Source: an uncultured Clostridia bacterium (lineage in GTDB: Bacteria > Bacillota > Clostridia > Oscillospirales > Acutalibacteraceae). From it: a stretch of DNA of 14,593 bases. The translations under genes and the position numbers were made by a program. Of this stretch, positions 1-13,522 are shown piece by piece. The DNA is taken from the NCBI GenBank assembly GCA_946409885.1, contig CAMJYF010000013.1, positions 1 to 14,593 of the forward strand, written 5' to 3'. Position 1 is the first letter of the stretch. Every line of letters starts with the position of its first letter. Below the pieces are notes generated by a model that saw nothing but the letters and a program-made list of their open reading frames with translations, was not told the origin of the DNA and searched no databases.

Positions 1-551
1 GCGGCGGCGATCAGCGTGATGGGCAGGCCCTCCAGCGATTTGGGCACGTCCGCCGGCTCCAGGCGCGAGCGCACCCCGGCGAACAGCACCATGGCCAGCA
101 GAAAGCCCGCGCCGGCGGCAAAGGAGCTGACCATGGCGTGGCCGAACCCGAAGCCGTAGGCGGAATAGGCGCTGATGTTGTCGATGTTCAGGATCACCAC
201 GCCCAGCACGGCGCAGTTGGTGGTGATGAGGGGCAGGTAGATGCCCAGGGCGTTATATAAGGATTTGACGTACTTTTTCAGCACGATCTCCACCATCTGC
301 ACCAGCGCCGCGATGACGAGGATGAAGACGATGGTCTGTAAGTAGGCCAGGTCGTGGGCTTCCAAAAACAGGTTCAGCGGGTAGGTGACCGCCGTGGCCA
401 GCAGCATCACGAAGATGACCGCCAGGCTCATGCCCACCGCCGTGTTCAGCTTTTTGGAGACGCCCAAAAACGGGCAGATGCCCAGGAATTTGGCCAGCGT
501 GAAGTTCTGGGTGAGGATGCCCATCACCAGCAGGGCGATGACGAATTTCAT
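1..551 (-). CDS. rnfA: Rnf complex subunit RnfA, C-terminus cut by window edge
   Basis: Integral membrane subunit of the Rnf ferredoxin:NAD+ oxidoreductase, which couples electron flow to Na+ or H+ export. The visible 183 residues are strongly hydrophobic, with about six membrane segments. Two conserved cysteines are present, C26 in LGICPFLG and C113 in TTNCAVLG; in this family the equivalents, with two from RnfE, hold an intramembrane [2Fe-2S] cluster. The reading frame is open to the window start and ends in the family's usual PITLI stretch, so only about ten residues should be missing. The ATG at 551 overlaps the rnfE stop as ATGA (551-548), implying translational coupling. rnfB is the expected next gene outside the window. 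The family call is secure; the cluster role is taken from known Rnf/Nqr structures. Confidence 0.96.
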   Translation of the reverse strand, partial: MKFVIALLVMGILTQNFTLAKFLGICPFLGVSKKLNTAVGMSLAVIFVMLLATAVTYPLNLFLEAHDLAYLQTIVFILVIAALVQMVEIVLKKYVKSLYNALGIYLPLITTNCAVLGVVILNIDNISAYSAYGFGFGHAMVSSFAAGAGFLLAMVLFAGVRSRLEPADVPKSLEGLPITLIAA

Positions 552-1330
552 TGCGCGTCGGCCTCCTTTCTGTCAGCGGGCGCTTCGGCGCACTCGCTTC
601 GGCCGCACACGGCGGCGTGGGGGCAGCCTTCGCAGCCCCGCAGCTCCGCCTTGGGCATGCCCTTGCGGTCCGCCAGCCGGTTGGCCAGCGCCATGATGAC
701 GCCGAAGGTGAAAAATCCCCCGGCGGGCAGAATGAAGACGGTCATGGGGGCCAGCTTCAGGTTGGCAAGGGTCTCGGTGAAATCAAAGCCCGTAAAGCCC
801 TTCAGGTCCACAAACCCGCCGATCATGGTGTCGATGCCGGCCAGGAAGGTGCCCGCGCCCAGGATCTCCCGCACCGCGCCCATGCAGAACAGGGCGGCGG
901 TAAAGCCGATGCCCATGCCAAGGCCGTCCACGGCGGAGACCAGCACCGGATTTTTGCTGGCGAAGGCTTCCGCCCGGCCCAGAATGATGCAGTTGACCAC
1001 GATGAGGGGCAGGAACACGCCCAGGGATTCATCCAGCGCGGGGACAAAGGCCTTTACCAGCATCTGCACGATGGTGACGAAGGAGGCGATGACCACGATG
1101 TACGCCGGAATGCGCGCCTTGGCGGGAATGACCTTCCGCAGGGCGGAGATGGCGATGTTGGAGCAGATCAGCACGATGGTGGCCGCGATGCCCATGCCCA
1201 CGCCGTTGACCACGGAGGTGGAGGTGGCAAGGGTGGGGCAGGTGCCCAGCACCAGCCGCAGCACGGGGTTTTCCCGCAGGAAGCCCTTTGTCAGCTCCTT
1301 GCCGTAACTGTATTTTTTCTTTTCAGCCAT
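548..1330 (-). CDS. rnfE: Rnf complex subunit RnfE with Cys-rich C-terminal tail
   Basis: Membrane subunit of Rnf and structural partner of RnfA, 260 residues. Conserved cysteines C31 (GTCPTLA) and C114 (VVNCIILGRAEAFA) match the family positions that help bind the intramembrane [2Fe-2S] cluster; about six membrane segments follow the family layout. After the last segment comes a hydrophilic tail with C233, C236, C242 and C247 (CX2CX5CX4C) plus H238, giving a protein longer than the roughly 200-235 residues I expect for RnfE. A GTG at 1351 overlaps the rnfG stop, but the ATG at 1330 has AAAGGGGG just upstream and gives the usual N-terminus, so I chose it. The gap to rnfG is then 17 bases. The stop overlaps the rnfA start. 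Confidence 0.95.
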   Translation of the reverse strand: MAEKKKYSYGKELTKGFLRENPVLRLVLGTCPTLATSTSVVNGVGMGIAATIVLICSNIAISALRKVIPAKARIPAYIVVIASFVTIVQMLVKAFVPALDESLGVFLPLIVVNCIILGRAEAFASKNPVLVSAVDGLGMGIGFTAALFCMGAVREILGAGTFLAGIDTMIGGFVDLKGFTGFDFTETLANLKLAPMTVFILPAGGFFTFGVIMALANRLADRKGMPKAELRGCEGCPHAAVCGRSECAEAPADRKEADAQ

Positions 1331-1347
1331 GGTGTTTCGTCCCCCTT

Positions 1348-1887
1348 TCACGCCACGCCGGCGTACAGCGCCAGCGCCTGATTGACCGCGTTGGTGACCG
1401 CGCGGGAGGTGATGGTGGCGCTGGTGATGGCCACGATCTCGCCGCCGTCCTTGTTCACGGCCAGCTGGCCGGATTTGCCTTTATATTGCTCTTTGAAGCT
1501 GTCCTTCTTGGCGTTCATGCCAAGGCCGGGGGTCTCCTCGATGGAAAGGATGCTGATCCCGGTTACCCGGCCTTCCGCGTCCACGCCGGTCATGATCTCC
1601 ACGTCGCCGCCGTATCCCTTGGCGGAGGTGGTGAACACGTAGCCCACGGTGGCGCCGCCGCTTTTGCCCGTGTAGTACACGGCGCCGTCCGGCGCGGTGT
1701 TCTCCTCAAAGCTGTCCGCCGCGGGCAGCACCTCGCCCCGGGCCTTATCGGCCGCCGCCGCGTTGTTGGCGGCGATGGTGGGGGCCGTCACCGTGTTGAC
1801 AAGGGCCAGCGCCCCCGCCGCCACGGCGCAGATGAGGAACAGCGACAGGGCGGTGATGAGAATGGATTTCACGTCTTTTCCGTTCAT
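1348..1887 (-). CDS. rnfG: Rnf complex flavoprotein subunit RnfG
   Basis: Single-pass membrane flavoprotein of Rnf, 179 residues, with most of the protein outside the cytoplasm. A hydrophobic segment covers about residues 8-31, followed by an FMN-binding domain. The flavinylation motif lies near the C-terminus as SATITSRAVT, residues 156-165; T158 is the expected acceptor of covalent FMN, added by ApbE, which this operon also encodes. The upstream motif EETPGLGM (118-124) is also typical of RnfG and NqrC. The ATG at 1887 overlaps the rnfD stop as ATGA (1887-1884). Length and motifs are normal for the family. Confidence 0.95.
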   Translation of the reverse strand: MNGKDVKSILITALSLFLICAVAAGALALVNTVTAPTIAANNAAAADKARGEVLPAADSFEENTAPDGAVYYTGKSGGATVGYVFTTSAKGYGGDVEIMTGVDAEGRVTGISILSIEETPGLGMNAKKDSFKEQYKGKSGQLAVNKDGGEIVAITSATITSRAVTNAVNQALALYAGVA

Positions 1888-2924
1888 GCGCCGGCGCCCT
1901 CCTTCGCTTGTTCTTTTGCTTTCTTTTCTTTTTTCTTTTTCACAAAGCCGAAATACGCCGGGGCCGTCGCCTTTTCGATCAGCGGGCAGGCGATGTTCAT
2001 CAGCAGGATGGAGTAGGAAACGCCCTCCGGCAGCGAGCCGTACAGGCGGATCACCGAGGTGAGCAGGCCGCAGCCGATGCCGAAGACGATCTTGCCCTTC
2101 AGGTTCACCGGGCTGGTGGCGTAGTCGGTGGCCATGAAGAACGCGCCCAGCAGCAGGCCGCCGCCCATCAGCTGGTAGGCGGTAAAGGCCAGGTTGAAGC
2201 GGGAGGCCAGCAGCATGAACACCGCCACGGTGCCGATATAAGAGAAGGGGATGGCGATTTTGATGACGCCCCGGATGAGCAGGTAGGCCGCGCCGATGAG
2301 CAGCGCCGCGGCGCACACCTCCCCGATGCAGCCCTGCCGTACGCCCAGGAACATCCTGAAATAAGAGGGCAGCTTGTCGGCCGCCTGATAAAGATGGATC
2401 TGACCGGTCAGGTCGCCCGACAGGTCAAAGCCGGACAGGGTGGCCAGCGGGGTGGCGGAGACGATGGCGTCCACGGATTTTGGCTCCGGGAAGTGGGTCA
2501 TGGCGGAGGCGAAGGACACCAGCAGCACGATGCGGGCGGTGATGGCGGGGTTGGCGAAGTTCTGCCCCACGCCGCCGAACAGCTGCTTGACGATGACGAT
2601 GGCCACAAAGGAACCGATCACGCACATCCACAGGGGGATGGAGACCGGCAGGTTGAAGGCCAGCAGCAGGCCCGTGACCACGGCGCTCAGGTCGCCCACC
2701 GTCACGCTCTTTTTCATTATTTTACGGGAGAGGTATTCAAACGCCACGCAGCTGCCAACGCACACCGCCATGACCAGCGCCGCGCGGAAGCCGAACACGG
2801 CGATCCCGGCGATGGCGGCGGGGCACAGGGCGATGATCACGTCGAACATCACGCCCGATACGGTGGCGGGCCCCTTTACGTGGGGCGACGCGCTGACGGT
2901 GAGTTTTGCGGTTTCGTTCATCAT
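1884..2924 (-). CDS. rnfD: Rnf complex membrane flavoprotein subunit RnfD
   Basis: Polytopic membrane subunit, 346 residues, related to NqrB, carrying covalent FMN and thought to take part in ion translocation. The N-terminus has the family signature SPHVKGPATVSGVMFDV in outline (about residues 13-29). GGVGQNFANPA (117-127) and VSATPLATL (155-163) are also diagnostic; T158 in SATPL is the expected flavin acceptor. Many hydrophobic helices follow. The C-terminus is very basic (KKKKEKKAKEQ), a likely cytoplasmic tail. Two adjacent ATGs occur at 2924 and 2921. I chose 2924 because it overlaps the rnfC stop as ATGA and has GGGAGG upstream; the choice changes only one residue. Confidence 0.95.
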   Translation of the reverse strand: MMNETAKLTVSASPHVKGPATVSGVMFDVIIALCPAAIAGIAVFGFRAALVMAVCVGSCVAFEYLSRKIMKKSVTVGDLSAVVTGLLLAFNLPVSIPLWMCVIGSFVAIVIVKQLFGGVGQNFANPAITARIVLLVSFASAMTHFPEPKSVDAIVSATPLATLSGFDLSGDLTGQIHLYQAADKLPSYFRMFLGVRQGCIGEVCAAALLIGAAYLLIRGVIKIAIPFSYIGTVAVFMLLASRFNLAFTAYQLMGGGLLLGAFFMATDYATSPVNLKGKIVFGIGCGLLTSVIRLYGSLPEGVSYSILLMNIACPLIEKATAPAYFGFVKKKKEKKAKEQAKEGAGA

Positions 2925-4270
2925 TTCACGCCTGCCTCCCTCATGATTTCCTTGGCCAGCCGCATGTGCTGCACCAGCGGCTCGCCCGCCGGGCAGGAAT
3001 AGGCGCAGCTGCCGCATTCCATGCACACGGAAACGCCCAGCCTCGCCAGCTCTTCCGCGTCCCGTTTGTTGGCGTATTTTACGATCTGCGTGGGGATCAG
3101 CCCCATGGGGCAGGCCTCGTGGCAGCGGCCGCAGCGGATGCAGTCCCGCTGGGGCTTCAGCCCCACGCCGCGCCTGCTGAAGGCCAGCACGGCGTTGTTG
3201 CTTTTCAGCAGGGGCACGTCGATGCTCACCAGCGCCTGGCCCATCATGGGGCCGCCGGAGAGGATCTTATAGGGCTCCTCGGTAAAGCCGCCGCAGAAAT
3301 CGATGATCTCCCGGATGCTGGTGCCGATGGGCACCCGCACGTTCATGGGCCTGCGGATGCAGTCGCCGCTGACGGTGACGGAACGGCTGGTAAGGGGTTT
3401 GCCGGTCTTTAAGTAGCGGGAGACAAAGGCGGCGCTGGCCACGTTCATGACGATGCAGCCCACGTCCGCGGGCAGGCCGCCCGCGGGCACCTTCCGGCCC
3501 GTGGCGGACAGCACCATCATCTTTTCCGCGCCCTGGGGATATTTCGATTTCAGCGTCATCAGCTTGACGATATCGCCCCGGTCGTTGTCCTCGTCCGCGA
3601 TGGCCTTCAGCACCCGGATGGCCTCCGGCTTGTTGTCCTCCACGGCGATGACCACGTTTTTCAGGTCCAGCAGCTCCGCCAGCGTATACACGGCCCCCAT
3701 GATGTTCCAGGAGTTTTCCAGGCATTCCCGGTAATCCACGGTGATGTAGGGCTCGCATTCCGCCGCGTTGACGATCAGCGTGTCGATGGGCTTGTCCGGG
3801 GGCGTGTTCAGCTTTACGTGGCTGGGAAAGCCCGCCCCGCCCAGGCCCACCAGGCCGGAGGCGCGTATGGCCGCGAACAGCTCCTGCCGGTTGGTCACTT
3901 TGGGCGGCCTCAGCCCCTCCCAAAGGGTCATCTGCCCGTCGGATTCAATGGTGACGGCAGGGGCGATACGACCGTTGGCCAGCTTCACATCCGCCACGGC
4001 GGTCACCGTGCCGGAGACGGAAGCGTGGATGGGGGCGCTGACGTATTTGTCGGAATCGCCCACCACCTGGCCCACGTCCACGTGGTCGCCCTTTTTGACG
4101 GTTGGCGCGCAGGGCGCACCGATGTGCTGCTGCATGGGCAGCACCACGCAGCGGGGCGGGGGCATCCGCACCGTTTCGCAGTCCGCGGTGATTTTGTTGT
4201 GCGCGACGTGAATGCCGCCCCTGCCTTTGGCAACGGCTTTCAGGATCGCGCCGGGAGAAGGGTGTGACAT
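2921..4270 (-). CDS. rnfC: Rnf complex NADH-site and iron-sulfur subunit RnfC
   Basis: Peripheral cytoplasmic subunit that exchanges electrons with NAD(H), 449 residues. In order: an N-terminal RnfC barrel-like domain; the flavin/NADH fold with GLGGAGFPSHVKL (142-153) and NAAECEPYITVDYREC (168-183); an SLBB-like region; and two [4Fe-4S] ferredoxin motifs, C377/C380/C383/C387 and C416/C419/C422/C426, each followed by proline. All eight cluster cysteines are present. Length is normal. The frame stays open far upstream into the neighbouring gene, but the ATG at 4270 has GGAGG at 4278-4282 with seven bases between, and gives a standard N-terminus (MSHPSPGAI). It is first of the rnf genes proper, 44 bases after the Gx-transporter gene. 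Confidence 0.96.
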   Translation of the reverse strand: MSHPSPGAILKAVAKGRGGIHVAHNKITADCETVRMPPPRCVVLPMQQHIGAPCAPTVKKGDHVDVGQVVGDSDKYVSAPIHASVSGTVTAVADVKLANGRIAPAVTIESDGQMTLWEGLRPPKVTNRQELFAAIRASGLVGLGGAGFPSHVKLNTPPDKPIDTLIVNAAECEPYITVDYRECLENSWNIMGAVYTLAELLDLKNVVIAVEDNKPEAIRVLKAIADEDNDRGDIVKLMTLKSKYPQGAEKMMVLSATGRKVPAGGLPADVGCIVMNVASAAFVSRYLKTGKPLTSRSVTVSGDCIRRPMNVRVPIGTSIREIIDFCGGFTEEPYKILSGGPMMGQALVSIDVPLLKSNNAVLAFSRRGVGLKPQRDCIRCGRCHEACPMGLIPTQIVKYANKRDAEELARLGVSVCMECGSCAYSCPAGEPLVQHMRLAKEIMREAGVK

Positions 4271-4277
4271 ATGGTAT

Positions 4278-4282
4278 CCTCC
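4278..4282 (-). promoter_or_regulatory. Ribosome binding site of rnfC
   Basis: On the minus strand the bases read GGAGG, seven bases before the ATG at 4270. This is the only strong Shine-Dalgarno near the start and decides the rnfC N-terminus against a much longer open frame. Confidence 0.75.
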
Positions 4283-4314
4283 ATTGGAGTAAAGTATTGG
4301 CTGTGGATACAGAG

Positions 4315-4839
4315 TTACCGGAACAGCTTCAGTTTCGCCAGCGCCGGCATGACGGCGTTCAGGATCACGCCGGTGAGCAGTCCGAAGCCCACCCCGCTGA
4401 GCAGCAGCACGGGCAGCCAGCTCAGGTACAGGGCGCTGCCCACCAGCGCGGAGGCGGCCGCCAGCTGCCCCAGGTTGTGGGCCACCGCGCTGAGGGCGGA
4501 AACCCCCGCGTAGCTCAGCCGGCGGTGTTTGATTTGCAGCAGAAAATACATGGCCAGCACGCTCAGCAGCCCGCCGCAAAGCGACAGCAGCGAGGCCGTC
4601 GGCCCTGCCGTCAGCAGCGTAAAGCCCGCCTTGACCGCCGCCACGGACAGCGCGGAGGGAAGCCCCAGCGAGGCGCAGGCAAACAGCACGGCGATATTGG
4701 AAAATCCCGGCTTGACGCCCGGGGGCAGCGGCAGGCCCGCCGTAAGGGTGGTTTCAAAAAAGGACATGGCCAGCGCCGCGGCCGCCAGCATGGCGGCGAC
4801 GGCCAGCTTCGTCAGCTTTTTGCGTTTTTCGTTCATCAT
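4315..4839 (-). CDS. Gx transporter family membrane protein
   Basis: A 174-residue membrane protein with about five hydrophobic segments. It belongs to the family named Gx transporter or, in older annotation, heptaprenyl diphosphate synthase component I (Hpre_diP_synt_I). Signature pieces are PGVKPGFSN (40-48), GPTASLLSLCGG (79-90) and VAHNLGQL (119-126). The biochemical role is not settled. The fold resembles small-molecule S-component-like transporters, and the prenyl synthase name is probably historical. It sits between the NusG domain II gene and rnfC, an arrangement I have the impression recurs in anaerobes with Rnf, suggesting a role in flavin, quinone or cofactor supply for the complex (inference). 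The ATG at 4839 overlaps the upstream TAA (TAATG). Confidence 0.85.
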   Translation of the reverse strand: MMNEKRKKLTKLAVAAMLAAAALAMSFFETTLTAGLPLPPGVKPGFSNIAVLFACASLGLPSALSVAAVKAGFTLLTAGPTASLLSLCGGLLSVLAMYFLLQIKHRRLSYAGVSALSAVAHNLGQLAAASALVGSALYLSWLPVLLLSGVGFGLLTGVILNAVMPALAKLKLFR

Positions 4840-5216
4840 TATCCCGTCAGCGCGTCCGGCGCGTTCCTCGCGCGCCCGGTAACGCGGATCAGCGTTTCGT
4901 TGGGCAGACAGGCGGCGCTTTCGCCCGCCTTTGTCAGCTTACCCGCCCGCACGCACAGTTGATTGGGGCAGCCGGAGGCGCAAAAGGAGATGGCACCGGG
5001 CTCCACCGCCACGGTCACGCCGTTGTCCAGCGCGATGGTATAGGGCTCCCGGACGGCGGTCAGGTCCACGGTCTCCACGGTCTGCCGGCCGACGATGATC
5101 TCGGCCGTTGCCCCGTCCGTTCCGCCGAGCAGCGCCAGCAGCCCCGCGGCCGCCAGAACCGCCGCCGCGGCGATCAGATCCGCCGGACGGAGGAACCGTT
5201 TCAGTTTATTCTTCAT
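4839..5216 (-). CDS. Membrane-anchored NusG domain II protein
   Basis: A 125-residue protein with one N-terminal membrane anchor (about residues 13-31) and a small outside domain of the NusG_II type. There is no NusG N-terminal transcription domain, so this is not a transcription factor. The conserved pattern is C79, C83 and C88 in FCASGCPNQLCV, then C103 in ACLPN; the cysteines are a family hallmark and could bind metal or form disulfides. Its start overlaps the apbE end by 11 bases and its stop touches the Gx-transporter start. Function is unknown. Linkage with ApbE and Rnf suggests a part in extracytoplasmic flavin or electron transfer, which is inference. Confidence 0.85.
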   Translation of the reverse strand: MKNKLKRFLRPADLIAAAAVLAAAGLLALLGGTDGATAEIIVGRQTVETVDLTAVREPYTIALDNGVTVAVEPGAISFCASGCPNQLCVRAGKLTKAGESAACLPNETLIRVTGRARNAPDALTG

Positions 5217-6258
5217 AGGTTTTTAATGTAAAGCTGTCGTCGGTCAGGGTGAAGGCGTCCTTCAGCCCGTCCGTTACATAGTACTCTTTGTTCTGATAGA
5301 CAAAAACCGCCTCCGCGCCGAAGCTGTTCAGCCAGCGCAGCGTTTCCCCGTTCAGCCCGTTGATGAAGCAGGCGGTGGAAAGCGCGTCGCTGTTGATGCC
5401 GGAGGTGGCGTATACGGTCACGGAGACCAGATCCGTCTCCACCGGATAGCCGGTAAGAGGGGACAGGATGTGGTGGTAGACGACGCCGTCTTCCGTGAAC
5501 TGCTTTTCATAGCTGCCGGAGGTGGCGACAAAGCCGGTGTAATCGGGTTTGTCCGGTGTAAGGGACAGACTGGCAAAATAGTCGTTTGGCCCGCTGAAGG
5601 GATCCCGCACGCCGACCGTCCAGCTCTTTCCCTTTTTCGGCGTTCCGAACAGCAGCACGGAGCCGCCGAAGGAGACCACGGCGGAATAGGCTTTGGACTG
5701 CAGCGCGTCGCGGGCCTCGTCCAGCGCCACGCCCTTGCCGAAGGCGCCGGGGTCAATCTTCTGCCCCGGTCCCAGCACGATCGTTCCGTTGACGTCGTCG
5801 ATCAACAGCCGCTCCAGCCCCACCGTTTCCTGTGCGGCGCGGAGCTCCTCTTCTGAGGGCAGACGGGGGTGGTCGGTGGAAAAGCCCCACAGCTGCGTGA
5901 CCGCCCCTACGGTCACGTCCAGCGTTCCGTTCAGCATGTTGCACAGCATTACCATGTCGCCCAGCGTTTTGCGGGTAAAGGCGGAGGCGTTGGCGGAGCC
6001 CTTGGCGTTCACCGCGGAAATCTCGGAGGAGGGATCGGTGGCGGAAAGGCAGGCGTCCGCCGCGTTGACCTTTTCGGTGATGCGGTCGAACAGCAGGTCG
6101 GCGTCCTCCTTCGGGGCGTACAGCCTTGCGGTCAGCACGCTGCCCATGGCAAAGGCGGTGCGTTCTTCATAGGTGGCGGCGCAGCCGGTGAGCGCGCCGC
6201 ACAGGGTCAGGGCAGCGCACAGCAGCGCGGCGGCGCGGAACAGGCGGTTACTTTTCAT
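5206..6258 (-). CDS. apbE: FAD:protein FMN transferase ApbE (lipoprotein)
   Basis: Transfers FMN from FAD to a threonine of target proteins outside the membrane; the likely targets here are RnfG and RnfD of the same operon. 350 residues, normal length. The signal peptide ends in the lipobox LTGC with lipidated C26. Family motifs in order: AMGSVLTARLY (37-47), DPGAFGKGVALD (169-180, the usual D-x-G-x-x-x-KG), VSFGGSVLL (195-203), SGSYEKQF (247-254), HHILSPLTGYP (262-272) and SDALSTA (290-296), with D291 and T295 as the expected Mg2+ ligands. The ATG at 6258 has AAAGGAG a few bases upstream. It is the first gene of the operon, behind an extended -10 promoter. Confidence 0.96.
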   Translation of the reverse strand: MKSNRLFRAAALLCAALTLCGALTGCAATYEERTAFAMGSVLTARLYAPKEDADLLFDRITEKVNAADACLSATDPSSEISAVNAKGSANASAFTRKTLGDMVMLCNMLNGTLDVTVGAVTQLWGFSTDHPRLPSEEELRAAQETVGLERLLIDDVNGTIVLGPGQKIDPGAFGKGVALDEARDALQSKAYSAVVSFGGSVLLFGTPKKGKSWTVGVRDPFSGPNDYFASLSLTPDKPDYTGFVATSGSYEKQFTEDGVVYHHILSPLTGYPVETDLVSVTVYATSGINSDALSTACFINGLNGETLRWLNSFGAEAVFVYQNKEYYVTDGLKDAFTLTDDSFTLKTYEE

Positions 6259-6321
6259 AGGGCTCCTTTGACCCGGCCGTCGGGAGCGGCGGACCGGCGA
6301 TTTTATTCCATAAGTAATATC

Positions 6322-6350
6322 AGTATAGCAAAAAAAACCGTTCCCGTAAA
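6322..6350 (-). promoter_or_regulatory. Promoter of the apbE-rnf operon
   Basis: On the minus strand: -35 TTTACG (6350-6345), a 17-base spacer, and -10 TATACT (6327-6322) preceded by TGC, i.e. an extended -10. Transcription would start near 6315, about 57 bases before the apbE ATG. This fits a sigma-A type promoter; a run of eight T in the spacer may add curvature. Confidence 0.6.
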
Positions 6351-6451
6351 GTACTTTTCCAAACTTTCTTGCAGGGATTTCTCCCGCTTCCTCCGTTTGC
6401 TTCCAAAAAAGGGGAGATTTTTCTGCAAAACCAGCTCCCCCGGCGGAGGGA

Positions 6452-6480
6452 TTGATAATTTCAGAAATAATGCTTGTAAT
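6452..6480 (+). promoter_or_regulatory. Upstream promoter candidate of the sortase module
   Basis: TTGATA (6452-6457) and TGTAAT (6475-6480) are separated by exactly 17 bases, each one base off the sigma-A consensus. The spacer contains the palindrome ATTTCaGAAAT. It overlaps the next promoter candidate, so only one may be used at a time. Confidence 0.4.
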
Positions 6481-6502
6481 CCTCCGTTATATGTGATATT
6501 AT
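6474..6502 (+). promoter_or_regulatory. Main promoter candidate of the sortase module
   Basis: TTGTAA (6474-6479), a 17-base spacer, then TATTAT (6497-6502) with TG one base before it, an extended -10. Transcription would begin near 6509, leaving about 90 bases of leader before the GTG at 6601. AT-rich sequence follows immediately. Confidence 0.5.
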
Positions 6503-6600
6503 TATTTATATATTTTATATAGCGGACGGTTTTTAAGGTTCATCAAAAGGTAGGGGCGTATAATTCCCCGCGTTACCGTTAATCCGAACGGAGGATCACC

Positions 6601-7707
6601 GTGAGCGACGCGAAAAACAGCGAAACTAAAAAGAAAGAGACCGGCGCGCCCGCGCAGCAGCCGCAGGGCGCCAGCGTCAATTATATCGACGAACTGAACA
6701 ACGATGAGGAAGACCTGCGGGATATGAAGCTGGCGCAGGAGCGCGTTATCGCCCCGAAGGACAAACGGGTGCTGGCGCTGCTGGCCGCGCTGAACGTGCT
6801 GGTGTTCGGCGTCATCGGCCTGTTCCTGATCACCACGGGCAGCGCGAACGAGTACGATTCCATCAAGGGGGAATCCGCCTTTGACATGAAGACCCCCTAT
6901 TACGACGCTTCCACGGTGCTTTCCGCCGAACCGGAGCCCGTTCTGGCAGAGGCCAGCTTTCCGGAGGGGATGCAGGAGAAATTCCGCCCGCTGTTTTCCG
7001 TCAACAACGATACGGTGGGCTGGATCCGCATCAACGACACCCCGGTGGATTACGTGGTTGTGCAAAGCGATACCAACTCCTATTATGAGCGCAAGGATTT
7101 CTATCAGGATTATTCCGTGCGCGGCATCATCTTTATGGATTACCGCAATATCCTTTGGGATACGGTGCCCGTCACCTCCAAAAACACGGTGCTGTACGGT
7201 CACCACATGGCCTCCGACGGCACGGTGTTCACCTGCCTGGAGAATTACACCGATCCGGAGTACTATAAAAAGCACCCGCTGATCGAGTGCGATACGCTTT
7301 ACGCCGATTACCAGTGGAAGATCGTGGGCGCGTTCCTGAACTACCCCAACGATCCCGCGGACGGTGACGACCTGTTCTATTACTGGTACACGGATTTTTC
7401 CGACGACAACACCGTGGCCTTCGCCAACGAGGTGGCCAGCCGCAGCTTTTTCGTGAACCCCTCGGTGGACGTGCAGCCCACCGACCGGTTCCTGACCCTT
7501 TCCACCTGTACCTATATGCTGGACCGCGGCTCCCGCGTCAACGCGCGTTTCGTGGTGGTGGCCCGGCAGGTGCGGCCGGGGGAAAGCGCGGCGGTGGACG
7601 TGGAGAAGGCCTACGCCAACGACGGCCGCCGGATGCCGCAGCTGTGGTATGATATCCACGACGAGGACAACCCCTATGCGGACGTGCCGATCTGGCAGGC
7701 GTGGTAG
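6601..7707 (+). CDS. Class B sortase, first copy
   Basis: A membrane-bound cysteine transpeptidase that cleaves a sorting motif and joins the protein to peptidoglycan or another protein. 368 residues, longer than a usual SrtB (about 230-260). Layout: a charged cytoplasmic N-terminus of about 55 residues; membrane segment about 57-79; sortase domain about 120-325. Catalytic residues are all visible: H201 in LYGHHM, C303 in LTLSTC and R316 in NARFVVVAR. A 45-residue extension, starting RPGESAAVD, follows the domain and recurs in the second sortase of this locus. The start is GTG at 6601 with GGAGG at 6590-6594. First gene of a five-gene set. Substrate unknown; no sorting signal is visible in the window. 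Confidence 0.93.
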   Translation: MSDAKNSETKKKETGAPAQQPQGASVNYIDELNNDEEDLRDMKLAQERVIAPKDKRVLALLAALNVLVFGVIGLFLITTGSANEYDSIKGESAFDMKTPYYDASTVLSAEPEPVLAEASFPEGMQEKFRPLFSVNNDTVGWIRINDTPVDYVVVQSDTNSYYERKDFYQDYSVRGIIFMDYRNILWDTVPVTSKNTVLYGHHMASDGTVFTCLENYTDPEYYKKHPLIECDTLYADYQWKIVGAFLNYPNDPADGDDLFYYWYTDFSDDNTVAFANEVASRSFFVNPSVDVQPTDRFLTLSTCTYMLDRGSRVNARFVVVARQVRPGESAAVDVEKAYANDGRRMPQLWYDIHDEDNPYADVPIWQAW

Positions 7708-7765
7708 GAAATCAGCGGTTGGTGGTCAGTGTCAGTGGACGGATGATAAATGGAGATTGGAAGGG

Positions 7766-7771
7766 AAGGAG
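7766..7771 (+). promoter_or_regulatory. Ribosome binding site selecting the ATG at 7780
   Basis: AAGGAG, eight bases before the ATG at 7780. The in-frame ATG ten codons upstream lacks a comparable site. Confidence 0.65.
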
Positions 7772-7779
7772 AACGCGAT

Positions 7780-9357
7780 ATGACCAATGACGGCGCAGGC
7801 AGCGGAAGAGGGCCCGCCGACCGTTTTCAGGATGATTCCGTTGACGAGATTCTTTCGGGGATCCTGAACAAAGACGGTTCTTTCAATGAGGAATTCGACG
7901 CGCTTCTGACAAAATATCTGGGCGAGGACGCGGCGCACGTGGCGTCGCTGCGGGGCGTGGATCTGTCCAGCCGGGTGGATGAGCCCCGTCCGCGCCAGCA
8001 TGTGGAATATGAGGATCCGGACGATCCCTACGGCTACGGCCCCAGCCGCCCCGGCAGGGACGTGGACCGGCGCATTGCGGACAAAATGCCGGAGGACGTG
8101 CGCTACGTTTACACCGAGGCGGCCTCGCAGGCGCAGCGGCCGGAGTTTACGGCCACCGGCGGCGTGCGTTACCCCGCCATGGGCGTGGGCGATTCCGAGG
8201 AGCGCGTGGTTTACGACGCGGAATGGGAAGAGCGCGCCCGGGAGGAGGCGGCGCGGCTGCAGCGCGTCCGGGAGGACCGGATGCTGCGGGGCGACAGCAC
8301 CTACGTGCGCTCCTTTGTGGCCGGCGGCAGGCCCATGCGCGGGCGGTCGCCCTTTATCGACCCCCTTTCCGCCGACGACGATTTTGACGACCCCTACCGC
8401 GGCGACGCGCGGAGACAGAACGGCGGCAACTCTTTTTTTCAGGAAGGTCCTCCCGCAAGACAGGCAAGAAATAAAGCGGGCCGGCAGCGCGGCTCCGCGG
8501 GCGGAAGGACCGGATCGGCAAGAACAGCCCCGCGCGGCGCGGGCGGAAGAGAGGACGTCTTCGAGTCCTTTTCCGATTCCTACGAAATGGCGGAGCGGTC
8601 CCGGGCGGCATGGATGCAGCCGGATGACGAATCCTCCTCCGGCAGAAGACGCCGCGGCGACCGGCGGCGCGATCAGCTGCCCCGGATCACCAGCACCCTG
8701 CGGGACGATTATGACAGCATGAGCGGATTGACGGAGGACTACGGCAGCCCGCCCCGCCGGGAGCCGCCTCCCCAGCTACGGGAAGAGCCGGAGCTGGACC
8801 CCCGCGGCGAGCGTTTTGCGGCGGCGTTCCACCGGAATCATCCGGAAGAACTTCCCGAAGAGGAGGAGCCGCAGCCCAGCCGGGTGGACCCCCGTGCGCT
8901 GGAGCAGGCGCGGGAACAGCGGCAGGGGCTCCGCTCCACCGTTTCCGAAATCGTGGATAAGTACGACAGACGCAGCGAGGAAGAGGCCCAGGCCCGCGAA
9001 AAAGCGCTGCGGGAGGAAATGGAGCGGCAGGAGGCGGAGCGCACCGCGCGCGAGAACTTTCTGAACAGCCTTTCCAGCGAGGTGGCCACCGCGCTGGACG
9101 AGGAAAACGGCGAGGAGGAGCAGCCGGAGGAGTATGACGATCTCACCGGCGCCACCGGCGGGCGGTACGTGCCCGGAACGGACGCGCTGAAAGCCTTTGC
9201 GGCGGCCCACAGCGGCGGCAATGAAGGCGACGGAAGCGGCGGGACGCCGGAGGGCGAGGACCCTCCGGAGGAGCCGGCGGCGCCTGATTACAGCATCTAT
9301 CTGGATCCCATCACGGAACCGGAGGAGGGGACCGGCGAAACCGGCGAACCCTCCTGA
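7780..9357 (+). CDS. Charged, low-complexity coiled-coil protein of unknown function
   Basis: I do not recognise this 525-residue protein. It has no signal peptide, membrane segment or cysteine, so it is probably cytoplasmic. A short ordered N-terminus (about 14-48, with VDEILSGILN and FNEEFDALLTKYLG) looks like two amphipathic helices. Then come Pro/Asp/Arg-rich stretches, a basic Gly/Arg-rich part (about 224-298), an acidic/basic alternating segment likely to form a long coiled coil (about 371-440), and a very acidic Gly/Pro/Glu tail. Arg, Glu, Asp and Pro dominate. AAGGAG at 7766-7771, eight bases before the ATG at 7780, selects this start over an in-frame ATG at 7750 that has no such site. 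Lying between two sortase genes, it could be a cytoplasmic scaffold for their unusually long N-termini, but that is a guess. Confidence 0.8.
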   Translation: MTNDGAGSGRGPADRFQDDSVDEILSGILNKDGSFNEEFDALLTKYLGEDAAHVASLRGVDLSSRVDEPRPRQHVEYEDPDDPYGYGPSRPGRDVDRRIADKMPEDVRYVYTEAASQAQRPEFTATGGVRYPAMGVGDSEERVVYDAEWEERAREEAARLQRVREDRMLRGDSTYVRSFVAGGRPMRGRSPFIDPLSADDDFDDPYRGDARRQNGGNSFFQEGPPARQARNKAGRQRGSAGGRTGSARTAPRGAGGREDVFESFSDSYEMAERSRAAWMQPDDESSSGRRRRGDRRRDQLPRITSTLRDDYDSMSGLTEDYGSPPRREPPPQLREEPELDPRGERFAAAFHRNHPEELPEEEEPQPSRVDPRALEQAREQRQGLRSTVSEIVDKYDRRSEEEAQAREKALREEMERQEAERTARENFLNSLSSEVATALDEENGEEEQPEEYDDLTGATGGRYVPGTDALKAFAAAHSGGNEGDGSGGTPEGEDPPEEPAAPDYSIYLDPITEPEEGTGETGEPS

Positions 9358-10550: not shown

Positions 10551-12137
10551 ATGAATATCAGAATCTTTTTAGTCAATAACGAAAAAAACAATTACGCCGC
10601 GCGCCTGGCGCCGGAGCTGGCCTTTCTGTTTGAAGGGCAGCTGCCCTCGGAGGGCGGCGTGCGGTCGTACCGGTCCCTGCGCGACGCGGCGGACGACGTG
10701 GCGGCTGCCTTCTTGGATTCCCACGCCATTCTGTTTCTGGCGGAGCCGGCCAGGCTGGCCGAGACCAAAAAGCTGCTGGCCGCTTCCGTGGGGCTGACCC
10801 TGCGCTGCGACAGCGCCCTGCTGGAAAAGGCCTCGGCGACGCGCAACTCTTTGGCAGGGGAGCATTCCGATTTCGCCGTCACCCATGCCTACGTGCCGGA
10901 AAACGGCCGCGCGATCGTATGTGAGGACGGGCTGTACGCCGGTTTTTCCGTCACCGCCGGCAACCAGACGATTCTGGTGCTGCCGCTGGAGCGGGGCCGT
11001 ACGGAGCTGCTGCTGGAAAAAGAGGTGATCCCGCAGCTCAACGCCTCCTATCTGATCCGCGTGGATATGGGCGCCCTGAAGCGCTATCACGCCCGGCGGC
11101 TGGCGGCCGTCTGCGAGGAGCAGGACCTGCGCATTGCCGTGGCGGGTACCAACACCGCCGATTTCTTTACGGATTACCTCTCCTCGGAGCCCACCCTTGC
11201 CGACCGCATCATCCTTTCCGGCAAGGCGGAAAAGCGCGGCTCCCTGTCCCCGGCGGATTATGTGGTCAATCTTTCCATCACCGCCGCGGAATTCTACGGC
11301 ACCCCCTACGGCGTGGCCATTTCCAACGCGTTTTATTCCGGCAGCAATCCCTCCGGGGAAAAGCTCATCTATCTGGCCATCACCAACGAGTATGAGACCT
11401 CGTTGCGGGAGGTCCGTTCCCTGCCGGGGGAGGAGATCCCCTCGCTGCTGTCCCGCTGCTGCGGCGACCTGTGTACCTTTATCAGCGATATCGCGGGTAC
11501 GGACGCGGGCAACCGGGAGGTGTCGCGGGTCAACGAAAAATCCCTGACCTCTCAGTATAAGGTCATCATCGCCCTGGTGGCGGCGCTGGTGGCGGGGCTT
11601 GTCCTCTTTGCCGGCCTGTTTTTCACGCTGCACGGCTATACCCTTAAAACCTGGGCGGCCAACGCCTGGAGCGCGGTCTTCCCGGGCAGCAAACCCATCT
11701 TCACCTCGGAGGCGGAAACCACCACCGGGGAGGTGACGGAAAGCGTAGTGGCCACCACCAACAAAATCTCTCTGACCTCCGTCACGGCGCAGGATACCGC
11801 GGCGGCTACCACCGCCGGGGCTGCTTCCGCGTCCGCCTCCGCGTCGCGTTCTTCCTCGTCGGGCTCCGGTTCGTCGGGCTCTGATTCCTCCGGCGGCAGC
11901 GCGGCTACCCGCGCGCCGACCACGGCGGCCCCCACTACGGCGGCGCCCACCACGGCCGCGCCCGTTACGGTCCCGCCCACAACGGCGGTCGCGCCCCCCG
12001 CTTCGGAAACGCCCACCTCCGAAACGCCCGTTTCTGAGGAGACGCCCTCCGGCGAAACGCCGAGCGAGGAACCCACACAGCAATCTTCCGGAACCGAAAA
12101 CAATGAAGGCTCCGGTGAACAGGAGGAAGGCAACTGA
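10551..12137 (+). CDS. Single-pass membrane protein with degenerate CinA-like cytoplasmic domain and Thr/Pro-rich tail
   Basis: 528 residues in three parts. Residues 1-335 have no signal peptide and should be cytoplasmic. 337-360 is one membrane helix. 380-528 is a Ser/Thr/Pro/Glu-rich outside tail with APTTA and SETP-type repeats. By eye the first part follows CinA: VPENGRAIVCEDG then YAGF (115-132) fits the P-GA-x-N-x-GTAxGF stretch, LVLPLERG (142-149) the LPGPP loop, and EKEVIPQL (156-163) its following helix. LAAVCEEQDLRIAVAG (184-199) fits the start of the C-terminal deamidase domain, and YGVAISN (253-259) with SGEKLIYLAIT (268-278) fits its end. The GGLGPT and ESCTGG active motifs are absent and the middle domain is reduced to about 15 residues, so I infer a non-catalytic relative. 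Weak GAGGGG site before ATG 10551. There is no LPxTG-like signal at the C-terminus. Confidence 0.75.
   Translation: MNIRIFLVNNEKNNYAARLAPELAFLFEGQLPSEGGVRSYRSLRDAADDVAAAFLDSHAILFLAEPARLAETKKLLAASVGLTLRCDSALLEKASATRNSLAGEHSDFAVTHAYVPENGRAIVCEDGLYAGFSVTAGNQTILVLPLERGRTELLLEKEVIPQLNASYLIRVDMGALKRYHARRLAAVCEEQDLRIAVAGTNTADFFTDYLSSEPTLADRIILSGKAEKRGSLSPADYVVNLSITAAEFYGTPYGVAISNAFYSGSNPSGEKLIYLAITNEYETSLREVRSLPGEEIPSLLSRCCGDLCTFISDIAGTDAGNREVSRVNEKSLTSQYKVIIALVAALVAGLVLFAGLFFTLHGYTLKTWAANAWSAVFPGSKPIFTSEAETTTGEVTESVVATTNKISLTSVTAQDTAAATTAGAASASASASRSSSSGSGSSGSDSSGGSAATRAPTTAAPTTAAPTTAAPVTVPPTTAVAPPASETPTSETPVSEETPSGETPSEEPTQQSSGTENNEGSGEQEEGN
11913..11990 (+). repeat. APTTA-type coding repeat
   Basis: About four imperfect 15-base units coding APTTA/PPTTA, in the outside tail of the CinA-like membrane protein. 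Third bases vary between units, so selection has kept the amino-acid pattern. Such Thr/Pro stretches usually span the wall or carry O-glycans. Confidence 0.75.
12003..12074 (+). repeat. SETP-type acidic coding repeat
   Basis: Successive units coding SETPT, SETPV, SEETPS, GETPS and EEP, just after the APTTA block. They make the end of the tail acidic. Copy number is likely to vary between strains. Confidence 0.65.
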
Positions 12138-12199
12138 CCGACCGGCTGGGCAGGCGGTTTACGGCCGTCCCCGCTGTTCGGGCTTTGCCGGACAATACA

Positions 12200-13522
12200 A
12201 TGATGAAAAAAAAGCTTATCAAACTGACGGCGCTGCTGGCGGCGCTGGTACTCATGGCGCAGCTGTTTGCCCTGTCCGCGTTCGCGTTGAAGGCGGCCTT
12301 TTTGGGCGACGTGAACCTGGACGGCGCGCTGGATCCCGGCGACGCCCGTCTGGCGCTGCGCATCGCCATCGGGCTGGAGGGCGCTTCCACCGCCCAGAAG
12401 AAGCTGTCCGACGTGGATTCCGACAAGGAGATCACCCCCGCCGACGCGCGGCTGATCCTGCGGGCGGCCGTGGGGCTGGAGGCGGCCTTCCGTATTCAGT
12501 TCGTCTTTACGGACGCGGAGCTCAACGACGGTCCCGAAAAGCCCACCCCCACGCAGCCCACGCCTTCGCAGCCCTATCCGCAGGTGCCCGACGATTCCAA
12601 GCCGGAGCAGGGCGGTACCCAGACGCCGCAGACCGGCACGGTGCCGAAGCCTGTGGCAAGCACCCAGTCCGGCACGTTCACCTTCGTCTCCTACGGCTGG
12701 GGCGACGGCGTCGGCATGCCCCAGTACGGCGCGGTGAGCCTGGCCAAATCGGGCTATTCCTGCGAGCAGATCCTGAAGCACTACTTCACCGGCGTGAAGA
12801 TCGTCACCAATACCGACTATCCGGAGACGACGGATTACCTGGGCGAGTACTGCAATACGGATGAACTGATCGCCCGGATGGTCTACATGGAGATGTACGG
12901 CATTGTGGACGACAATCCCTCCGTGGCCGTGGAGGCGCTGAAGGCCCAGGCCGTCTGCCTGTTCACGCTGCTGAAATACCACTCCTTCTCCACCGCCAAC
13001 CGGTATGAGATCGGCGTGGCCTCCGGCAAATCCTATTCGTCCCTGCCGGAGATCCTGAAAAACGCCGTCCGCTCGGTGCGCGGGCAGTACCTGACGCTGG
13101 AGAACTCCGCCAACAACGCGCCCATTCAGGCGCTGTACGGGGCCATCTCCGCGGGGCGTACCGCTTCCGCCAAGGACGTGTGGGGGGAGGATTATCCCTA
13201 CCTGCAGTCCGTCAGCAGTCCCCTTACCACGGACAGCCCCAGCTTTTCCAATACCTTCTATTTCTCCAAAGAGCAGATGCGGGATATCATCAAGAGCTAC
13301 GACAGTTCCATCGTCCTGCAGGACGATCCCTCCCAGTGGATCAAAATCGTGTCGCACTCCGCCTCCATCGACGCGGACCGGGGTTATGTGACGAAGATCC
13401 AGGTGGGCAACAAGGTGCTGGACGGCTATTTCGGCTTCTGCGACGGCATGATGCGCAGTTACTTCTGGAGCACCCGGTATTTCAACTCCAGCACCTGCTT
13501 CTGTGTGATGTATACGCCGTGA
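12200..13522 (+). CDS. Secreted dockerin protein with circularly permuted SpoIID/LytB domain
   Basis: 440 residues. A signal peptide (cleavage near ALSAFA, residue 29) precedes two dockerin-type calcium loops, D37/N39/D41/D45/D48 and D71/D73/D75/E77/D82, each followed by a [10 protein letters not shown] helix ending GLE. A Pro/Thr/Gln linker follows (about 111-160). The SpoIID-like pieces then come in unusual order. [14 protein letters not shown] (165-178) and [11 protein letters not shown] (191-201), normally at the end of this domain, come first. MVYMEMYG (227-234) with E231 at the expected catalytic Glu, EALKAQAV (245-252), [18 protein letters not shown] (318-335) and WSTRYF (423-428) follow. 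The usual His of GWGHGVGM is Asp169. The family acts on stripped glycan strands or enhances wall amidases. Start: paired ATGs at 12200/12203, with no strong ribosome site; I took the first. Confidence 0.85.

Follow-up and report, generated by a model that had tools for sequence, protein, structure and literature searches.

A putative CinA-derived pseudoenzyme with a predicted membrane anchor in a class B sortase locus of Clostridia

Why should a relative of CinA stand in a sortase locus? CinA is known as a soluble enzyme of NAD recycling and sortases as transpeptidases that work outside the cell. In the 14,593-nucleotide stretch of DNA analysed here (the window: contig CAMJYF010000013.1 of an uncultured bacterium of the Acutalibacteraceae, Clostridia), a gene with traces of CinA follows directly on a class B sortase gene. 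A sequence-only reading had taken its product for a catalytically dead CinA-like protein turned into a membrane protein with an outside tail, recruited as a cytosolic sensor or scaffold. The features concerned are:

6601..7707, + strand: class B sortase SrtB1, with TLSTC and YGHHM (TIGR03064, E 4.2e-43; Pfam Sortase over cut-off)
7750..9357, + strand: soluble protein of 535 residues, rich in Glu, Arg, Asp and Gly, with no significant family and no transmembrane segment
9383..10540, + strand: class B sortase SrtB2, immediately preceding the CinA-like gene, with TLYTC and YGHNT (TIGR03064, E 8e-36; Pfam Sortase over cut-off)
10551..11060, + strand: degenerate COG1058/MoCF (CinA N-terminal) domain, residues about 1-170, with the GGLGPT region replaced and LPGPPxE changed to LPLExxR
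11061..11510, + strand: degenerate PncC/CinA_C (NMN deamidase-like) domain, residues about 171-320, with the catalytic Ser changed to Thr200, the Lys segment deleted and two conserved Arg columns lost
11562..11618, + strand: transmembrane helix, residues 338-356 (hydropathy; 51 of 51 family members; within helix 296-360 of the predicted model)
11643..11678, + strand: short outside juxtamembrane helix, residues 365-376, in the predicted model (W368 invariant in the family)
11697..12134, + strand: outside tail rich in Thr, Ser, Ala and Pro by composition, modelled at low confidence (pLDDT mostly under 50)
12185..13522, + strand: SpoIID/LytB-type protein (TIGR02669, E 2.5e-30; Dockerin_1, E 7.2e-5) with a hydrophobic segment at 17-35

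The family, its topology and its neighbours

The gene at 10551-12137(+) is, as had been read, a real one: a single open reading frame from an ATG at 10551 to a stop at 12137, encoding 528 residues, whose M1 is nearly invariant among its relatives. A protein search with the product returned 53 rows, the first of which (P0002) is the window's own near-copy; the family alignment, A1, holds 51 sequences, the window protein included and P0002, P0008 and P0051 omitted. Residues 1 to about 330 are strongly conserved in A1, which has 37 invariant columns, and they are followed by the membrane helix and a tail of highly variable length. Only 11 of 245 genomes sampled from the order match A1, the window's own among them, and some of these matches are ordinary CinA or the membrane and tail region alone. 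Within the genus, a long match is present in every one of 26 genomes (one per genome, the window's own included), with a second, weak match to the membrane and tail region only in two.

The membrane helix falls at the aligned place in all 51 members of A1, and no other is predicted in 47 of them. Mean net charge is +2.6 before this helix and -0.1 after it, and by the positive-inside rule, according to which the positively charged flank of a membrane helix stays on the cytosolic side, the N-terminal domain is predicted to lie inside the cell. In the predicted model the CinA_C domain runs on at its end into the membrane helix through a single unbroken helix, residues 296-360. The window's tail is 19% Thr, 17% Ser, 16% Ala and 9% Pro, and tails in A1 run from 42 to 192 residues (median 90), so that the membrane helix and the Thr/Pro-rich outside tail that had been proposed both find support. 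Although the tails otherwise vary freely, a C-terminal Gly recurs, ending 36 of the 51 proteins, most often as VG (20) and then as AG (7).

Both sortases of the window retain the TLxTC and YGHx motifs, and their scores (147.3 bits for SrtB1, 123.5 for SrtB2) lie below the curated TIGR03064 (SrtB) cut-off of 153.75. In all 16 loci (15 related ones and the window) the CinA-like gene directly follows SrtB2, and in 15 of them a SpoIID-type gene comes next, the exception being L013, where the locus ends; all 26 genus genomes have a sortase upstream and 21 have SpoIID downstream, matched only in part in three (L069, L071, L072), and the two sets of counts, which overlap in species (identical dN/dS values), are not independent. 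Four of the five genus genomes that lack an adjoining SpoIID gene (L073-L076) carry in its stead what we take to be a sugar-epimerase-like gene, and the fifth locus is short. SpoIID is thus not an obligate neighbour, whereas the assignment of the gene to a sortase locus holds throughout; the search for homologues and gene neighbours that had been suggested finds the same order of CinA part, membrane helix and tail in the family, behind a class B sortase in every genome examined.

Other elements of the locus show features of their own. A region corresponding to the 535-residue protein was detected in 12 of the 15 related loci, and in several relatives (L009-L015) its counterpart is a long N-terminal extension of SrtB2, the stop-to-stop SrtB2 frames spanning 576-874 residues in these seven loci. 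At 548-6258(-) lies what is presumably a divergent Rnf-type operon with an ApbE-like gene and a short NusG-II-like protein, parts of which adjoin the sortase locus in 10 of the 15. In the product of 12185-13522 a dockerin-like repeat precedes the SpoIID domain, which is circularly permuted when read against 5i1t/5txu: the G(H/D)GVGM.QxGA segment, with which solved SpoIID chains end, here (query 163-206) precedes the rest (286-414).

The CinA fold and the remains of its active sites

Searched singly, the window protein is a weak match to CinA. The NCBIfam CinA model NF001813 finds residues 72-162 at E 0.01 and 14.9 bits, far from its curated cut-off of 379; a Pfam search of the protein gives no CinA model, there is none among the 25 of 46 Pfam families listed for the A1 members, and PDB sequence searches with the protein or the A1 profile did not find CinA. 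Such Pfam and PDB sequence matches as the protein has are at chance level. CID_GANP, matched by 16 of the 51 members (best E 0.0068), was dropped because 4dhx, which we take to be a GANP-type chain, matches profile positions 281-327 only at E 2.2 and the PncC fold covers that stretch. NF047981 matches one member (E 0.00018), and there are other single-member matches.

The signal strengthens when the family is taken together. NF001813 is matched singly by 35 of the 51 members at E up to 1 (best 8.7e-6), while the next-most-matched NCBIfam models reach eight. With hhalign, A1 matches a profile of 11 CinA proteins at E 4.7e-10 across 284 columns, and domain by domain the N part does so at 6.4e-13 and the C part at 3.6e-4, against best values of 0.13 over 30 column-shuffled controls and 0.68 for reversed ones; the C part matches 16 stand-alone PncC proteins of the genus weakly (E 0.0054, hhalign probability 6.7%). 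A sister family, in which a pseudo-CinA part, a membrane helix and SpoIID are joined, matches the window family at E 3.2e-35 over 304 columns and CinA at 6.6e-13 and 6e-17. A structural search with the predicted model has T. thermophilus CinA as its best three PDB matches (compared as 4ct8/4cta/4uux), a result obtained with VIA-align 2 only, a method that realigns the matches as ranked by Foldseek. The landmarks that had been read in CinA order along residues 1-335 are therefore confirmed by the profile and fold comparisons proposed at the time: the COG1058/MoCF fold at the N-terminus is found by profile and structure, the PncC-type fold follows it, and order and fold are those of CinA. By its defining features the protein is a CinA homologue and not a CinA enzyme. 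It differs from CinA in lacking the KH-type middle domain and the pyrophosphatase and deamidase motifs and in its added membrane helix and outside tail.

The extent of the losses is seen in a combined alignment (the domain and residue comparisons took in 30 of the 120 CinA-SrtB fusion proteins listed), where the window family shares the majority residue in 18 of the 80 columns that are at least 95% conserved in 42 CinA proteins. LFL-AEPARL is aligned with the TTGGLGPT stretch and AGTNT with AESCTGG, which is where the sequence-only reading had put LFLAEPARL and AVAGTNTADF. GGLGPT and the Asp pair after it are gapped or replaced, the column taken as the metal-site Asp holds mixed residues, and LPGPPxE reads LPLExxR. 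The middle domain, which had been called nearly gone, is gone from the profile (hhalign E 0.13 and 0.23, no match), and all 51 members have gaps at the columns that CinA conserves strongly from E188 through Y250. Reference residues D44 and E188 are assumed here to be Asp45 and Glu187 of T. thermophilus CinA. In the passages available of two reports, Asp45 of the N domain and Glu187 of the KH domain handle the metal (PMC9678776, PMC4246079). With GGLGPT, the metal-binding Asp and the KH-domain Glu all missing from the family's columns, the pyrophosphatase half is very likely dead.

The deamidase half is altered in a different manner. Alanine mutants of A. tumefaciens CinA (S31A, K63A, Y58A, R145A) had no detectable PncC activity, according to the passages available of that work (PMC5384747), and neither the Ser/Lys dyad nor the phosphate-binding Tyr/Arg set is kept in the window family. 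CinA catalytic S277 is Thr in 51 of 51 members (T200 of the window protein) and T351 is Ser in all 51; the Tyr/Lys segment is deleted, its columns being gapped; and of two conserved late Arg columns, either of which may be that of the phosphate-binding Arg, one is Ile or Val in 49 of 51 and the other Leu in 50. Judged by these losses the pocket is dead for NMN. However, T200, S258 and R229 are invariant in A1 and K228 is nearly so, K228 and R229 standing beside the deleted Lys segment, and the hydroxyls at two catalytic positions together with these two residues leave some room for altered chemistry. The earlier verdict of catalytic death is thus firm for the pyrophosphatase half and less so for the deamidase half. 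New residues have also been fixed, CinA Q117 being His in 51 of 51 (H112) and E155 Arg in 50 (R150). No full-length CinA match was found in 24 genus genomes and 21 of these have a stand-alone PncC, so NMN deamidation is probably covered elsewhere in the genus.

CinA joined to sortases and to SpoIID

The view that CinA proteins are soluble, from which the earlier reading set out, does not hold everywhere in the order, where fusions of an intact-looking CinA with a membrane sortase are common. L089 (genome G182) encodes CinA, a linker, a membrane helix, SrtB and a Thr-rich end in one protein of 1039 residues, with both CinA motifs and TLxTC. Among 143 genomes of the order with CinA over cut-off, at least 15, from five families, have a class B sortase fused to it (seven, in the same frame) or near it (eight, within about 1 kb on the same strand), a lower bound read by eye. 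A database search with the L089 protein found at least 616 proteins at E up to 0.001; among the 120 matches listed, the query's record included, 110 carry CinA Pfam domains and PF04203, and 117 keep the GGLGPT-type, ESCTGG-type and TLxTC motifs. Those that carry a database name are called competence/damage-inducible protein A, nicotinamide-nucleotide amidase or SrtB family sortase. A few (P0094, P0116, P0121, P0125, P0135, P0168) also carry PF03793 or, more rarely, PF02368 and more, which points to further architectures in this fusion family.

Like the window family, these fusions have a membrane-tethered CinA module associated with a class B sortase, and the end of the L089 protein is Thr/Pro-rich; unlike it, they keep the CinA motifs in 117 of the 120 listed and are one polypeptide, where the window has separate adjacent reading frames. 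Common descent of SrtB2 with the fused sortases was considered and is given no support by the sortase tree (24 of the 120 fused proteins listed), in which the fused sortases form a separate branch and the window's SrtB2 lies outside it. The fusions show, therefore, that a link between CinA and sortases exists, not that the pair is the same. A juxtamembrane motif was likewise rejected as a mark of CinA-linked sortases and is not used as an orthology mark because its counts are patchy: 27 of 120 fused proteins, eight of 18 SrtB2-labelled rows and a single one, the L090 fusion, of 15 SrtB1-labelled rows.

L090 (genome G264) has the layout of L089 with degenerate CinA motifs. Its gene at 4672-7347(+) encodes a double pseudoenzyme by motif, with TLATP for TLxTC and YGSN for YGHN, the His, the Cys and apparently the Arg of the sortase part being lost by reading; elsewhere its genome encodes another CinA and another class B sortase, which score above their cut-offs.

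The sister family (L091, L092; P0175-P0185) brings the other neighbour into the same polypeptide. In L091 and L092 a truncated, motif-less CinA, a membrane helix, a Thr-rich linker and SpoIID make one protein of 762-773 residues, whose gene comes right after SrtB2. It shares with the window family the truncated fold, the losses, the membrane helix and a Thr-rich stretch, and differs in that SpoIID, in the window, is the next gene. A database search gave at least 12 matches, the query included, 11 of which cover 89-100% of it. The combined tree (43 of 105 rows, in which c_L027, labelled plain and included in A2, represents the CinA portion of a fusion) was used only for the grouping of the window and sister families, which it places together at 100/100, with long branches meeting. 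By reading, the fused SpoIID is permuted in L092 and not in L091; what is presumably a sugar-epimerase-like gene follows the fusion gene in L091 (5487-6503).

The clearest sign of origin is the gene order in L092, where a gene for a CinA that has both motifs stands in a row with SrtB2 and the pseudo-CinA-SpoIID gene, preceded by genes that we take to be those of a cysteine desulfurase and thiI. On this ground the pseudo-CinA lineage probably arose by duplication of cinA in a thiI-cinA-sortase locus.

What the protein may do

Fold, losses, predicted topology, conservation, linkage and fusions together point to a pseudoenzyme recruited to the envelope. On balance we lean towards the view that this CinA derivative, now a single-pass membrane protein, acts as a cytosolic sensor or docking platform for wall enzymes, a function that, like the loss of a part in recycling NAD breakdown products, we infer from these features. 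The changed and conserved nucleotide pockets would bind a new ligand or a protein partner, the continuous helix from CinA_C to the membrane would carry the state of the pocket outside, and there the juxtamembrane helix and tail would position SrtB2, the SpoIID-type peptidoglycan enzyme or both. If only one of these is a real partner, SrtB2 is the better bet, since the sortase is always there and SpoIID is missing in some genomes.

That same difference (26 of 26 genus genomes against 21), and the fact that CinA-SrtB fusions look commoner than those of pseudo-CinA with SpoIID (at least 616 matches against at least 12), could mean that the protein serves the sortase only, either by chaperoning, inhibiting or anchoring SrtB2 or, through its tail, as an unusual substrate of it, with SpoIID a separate neighbour and no small molecule sensed. 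We consider this unlikely: the sister family is fused to SpoIID and not to a sortase, and, as a canonical sorting signal needs a second membrane helix, the single predicted one in 47 of 51 members makes such a signal on the tail improbable. Less probable again is that the protein is a membrane-tethered enzyme whose active site has been remodelled for a new substrate, a reading for which the retained hydroxyls of T200 and S258, the neighbouring K228 and R229 and the new, conserved H112 and R150 would provide material. Against it stand the loss of the GGLGPT region, the KH-type domain, the Lys segment and the late Arg columns, the mixed metal-site column, and the variation outside A1. In L073-L076, members of the genus that were compared by reading, T200 and H112 are kept, but S258 is Thr and K228 is replaced in all four, R229 is Ile in one and R150 His in one, which suggests a conserved shape more than a conserved catalytic set; eight of 11 sister-family proteins have Asn in the T200 column, and Asp is the majority residue of that family at the K228 position.

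Lost catalytic motifs and an internal stop in two of the 26 genus copies are also what a decaying cinA remnant, or a passenger in the operon, would show. However, the long match is present in all 26 genomes and free of internal stops in 24, dN/dS in the cytosolic part is 0.08-0.40 (the 25 least saturated pairs, seven of them distinct after collapsing same-species copies), the alignment keeps its 37 invariant columns and the sister family has the same shape. The newly fixed residues and the dN/dS values argue for selection for a role rather than decay, which we regard as very improbable. Most improbable of all is an unrelated fold that resembles CinA by chance; it would accord with the absence of CinA from the Pfam tables and PDB sequence searches and with the weak single-sequence match, but runs against the 35 members that match NF001813 and the sister-family matches, and is refuted by the family-level hhalign results and the structural matches to CinA.

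The preferred reading, a pseudoenzyme acting as sensor or platform, has parallels elsewhere in kind. The closest one with a worked-out function is SteA of the Mycobacteriales, which, in the passages available (PMC12977500), has a cytosolic core, a membrane helix at 344-366 and an outside amphipathic helix at 371-393 and controls RipA. The likeness is one of layout only, a core with a nucleotide-type pocket, a single membrane helix and an outside helix, and in the window it is predicted; SteA is tied to a peptidoglycan hydrolase, and the window family is linked to SpoIID-type domains by gene neighbourhood and, in relatives, by fusion. The C-terminal domain of SteA, as those passages describe it, resembles thiamine pyrophosphokinase, not CinA, and no homology is shown (PMC12977500). 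Among the 50 structural matches listed for the model of the CinA-like protein a thiamine pyrophosphokinase-like fold is absent. Glp and gephyrin, which to our knowledge have no PncC domain, offer a second parallel. In the available part of its description Glp is a MoCF enzyme, duplicated and with an altered active site, that became a membrane-linked scaffold, though it is of the MoeA family and uses a separate membrane receptor (PMC11733289). Neither SteA nor Glp is a demonstrated homologue of the whole window protein. Plant FADS1 has kept a CinA-type pyrophosphatase domain in inactivated form, fused to FAD synthetase, and the passages at hand mention no membrane or wall link (PMC9678776).

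The association itself is without precedent as far as was found, although envelope-recruited pseudoenzymes as a kind are not. In a literature search whose coverage left out most subscription papers, no title or abstract start among the papers listed joins CinA or PncC with a sortase, and none describes sortase fusions, SpoIID with a sortase or circular permutation of SpoIID. Again and again CinA occurs in one protein with a class B sortase or next to one, and where its motifs are lost the fold is kept, anchored in the membrane and conserved at a sortase/SpoIID locus. It is possible, if on the doubtful side, that membrane-tethered CinA modules, intact-looking when fused to SrtB and rewritten in the window family, make up a so far undescribed class of systems by which the cytosol controls the wall in Clostridia. 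They would sense nucleotides of the NAD cycle or others (ADP-ribose, NMN or a new ligand) and determine how active class B sortases and SpoIID-type wall enzymes are, or where they act. The forms make up a graded natural series, from intact through intact and fused and degenerate and fused to degenerate and free-standing, of an enzyme becoming a structural or sensory part, parallel to the passage from MoeA to Glp. With CinA joined to sortases and its degenerate form kept at a sortase/SpoIID locus, a possible influence of cytosolic metabolism on wall anchoring becomes open to test.
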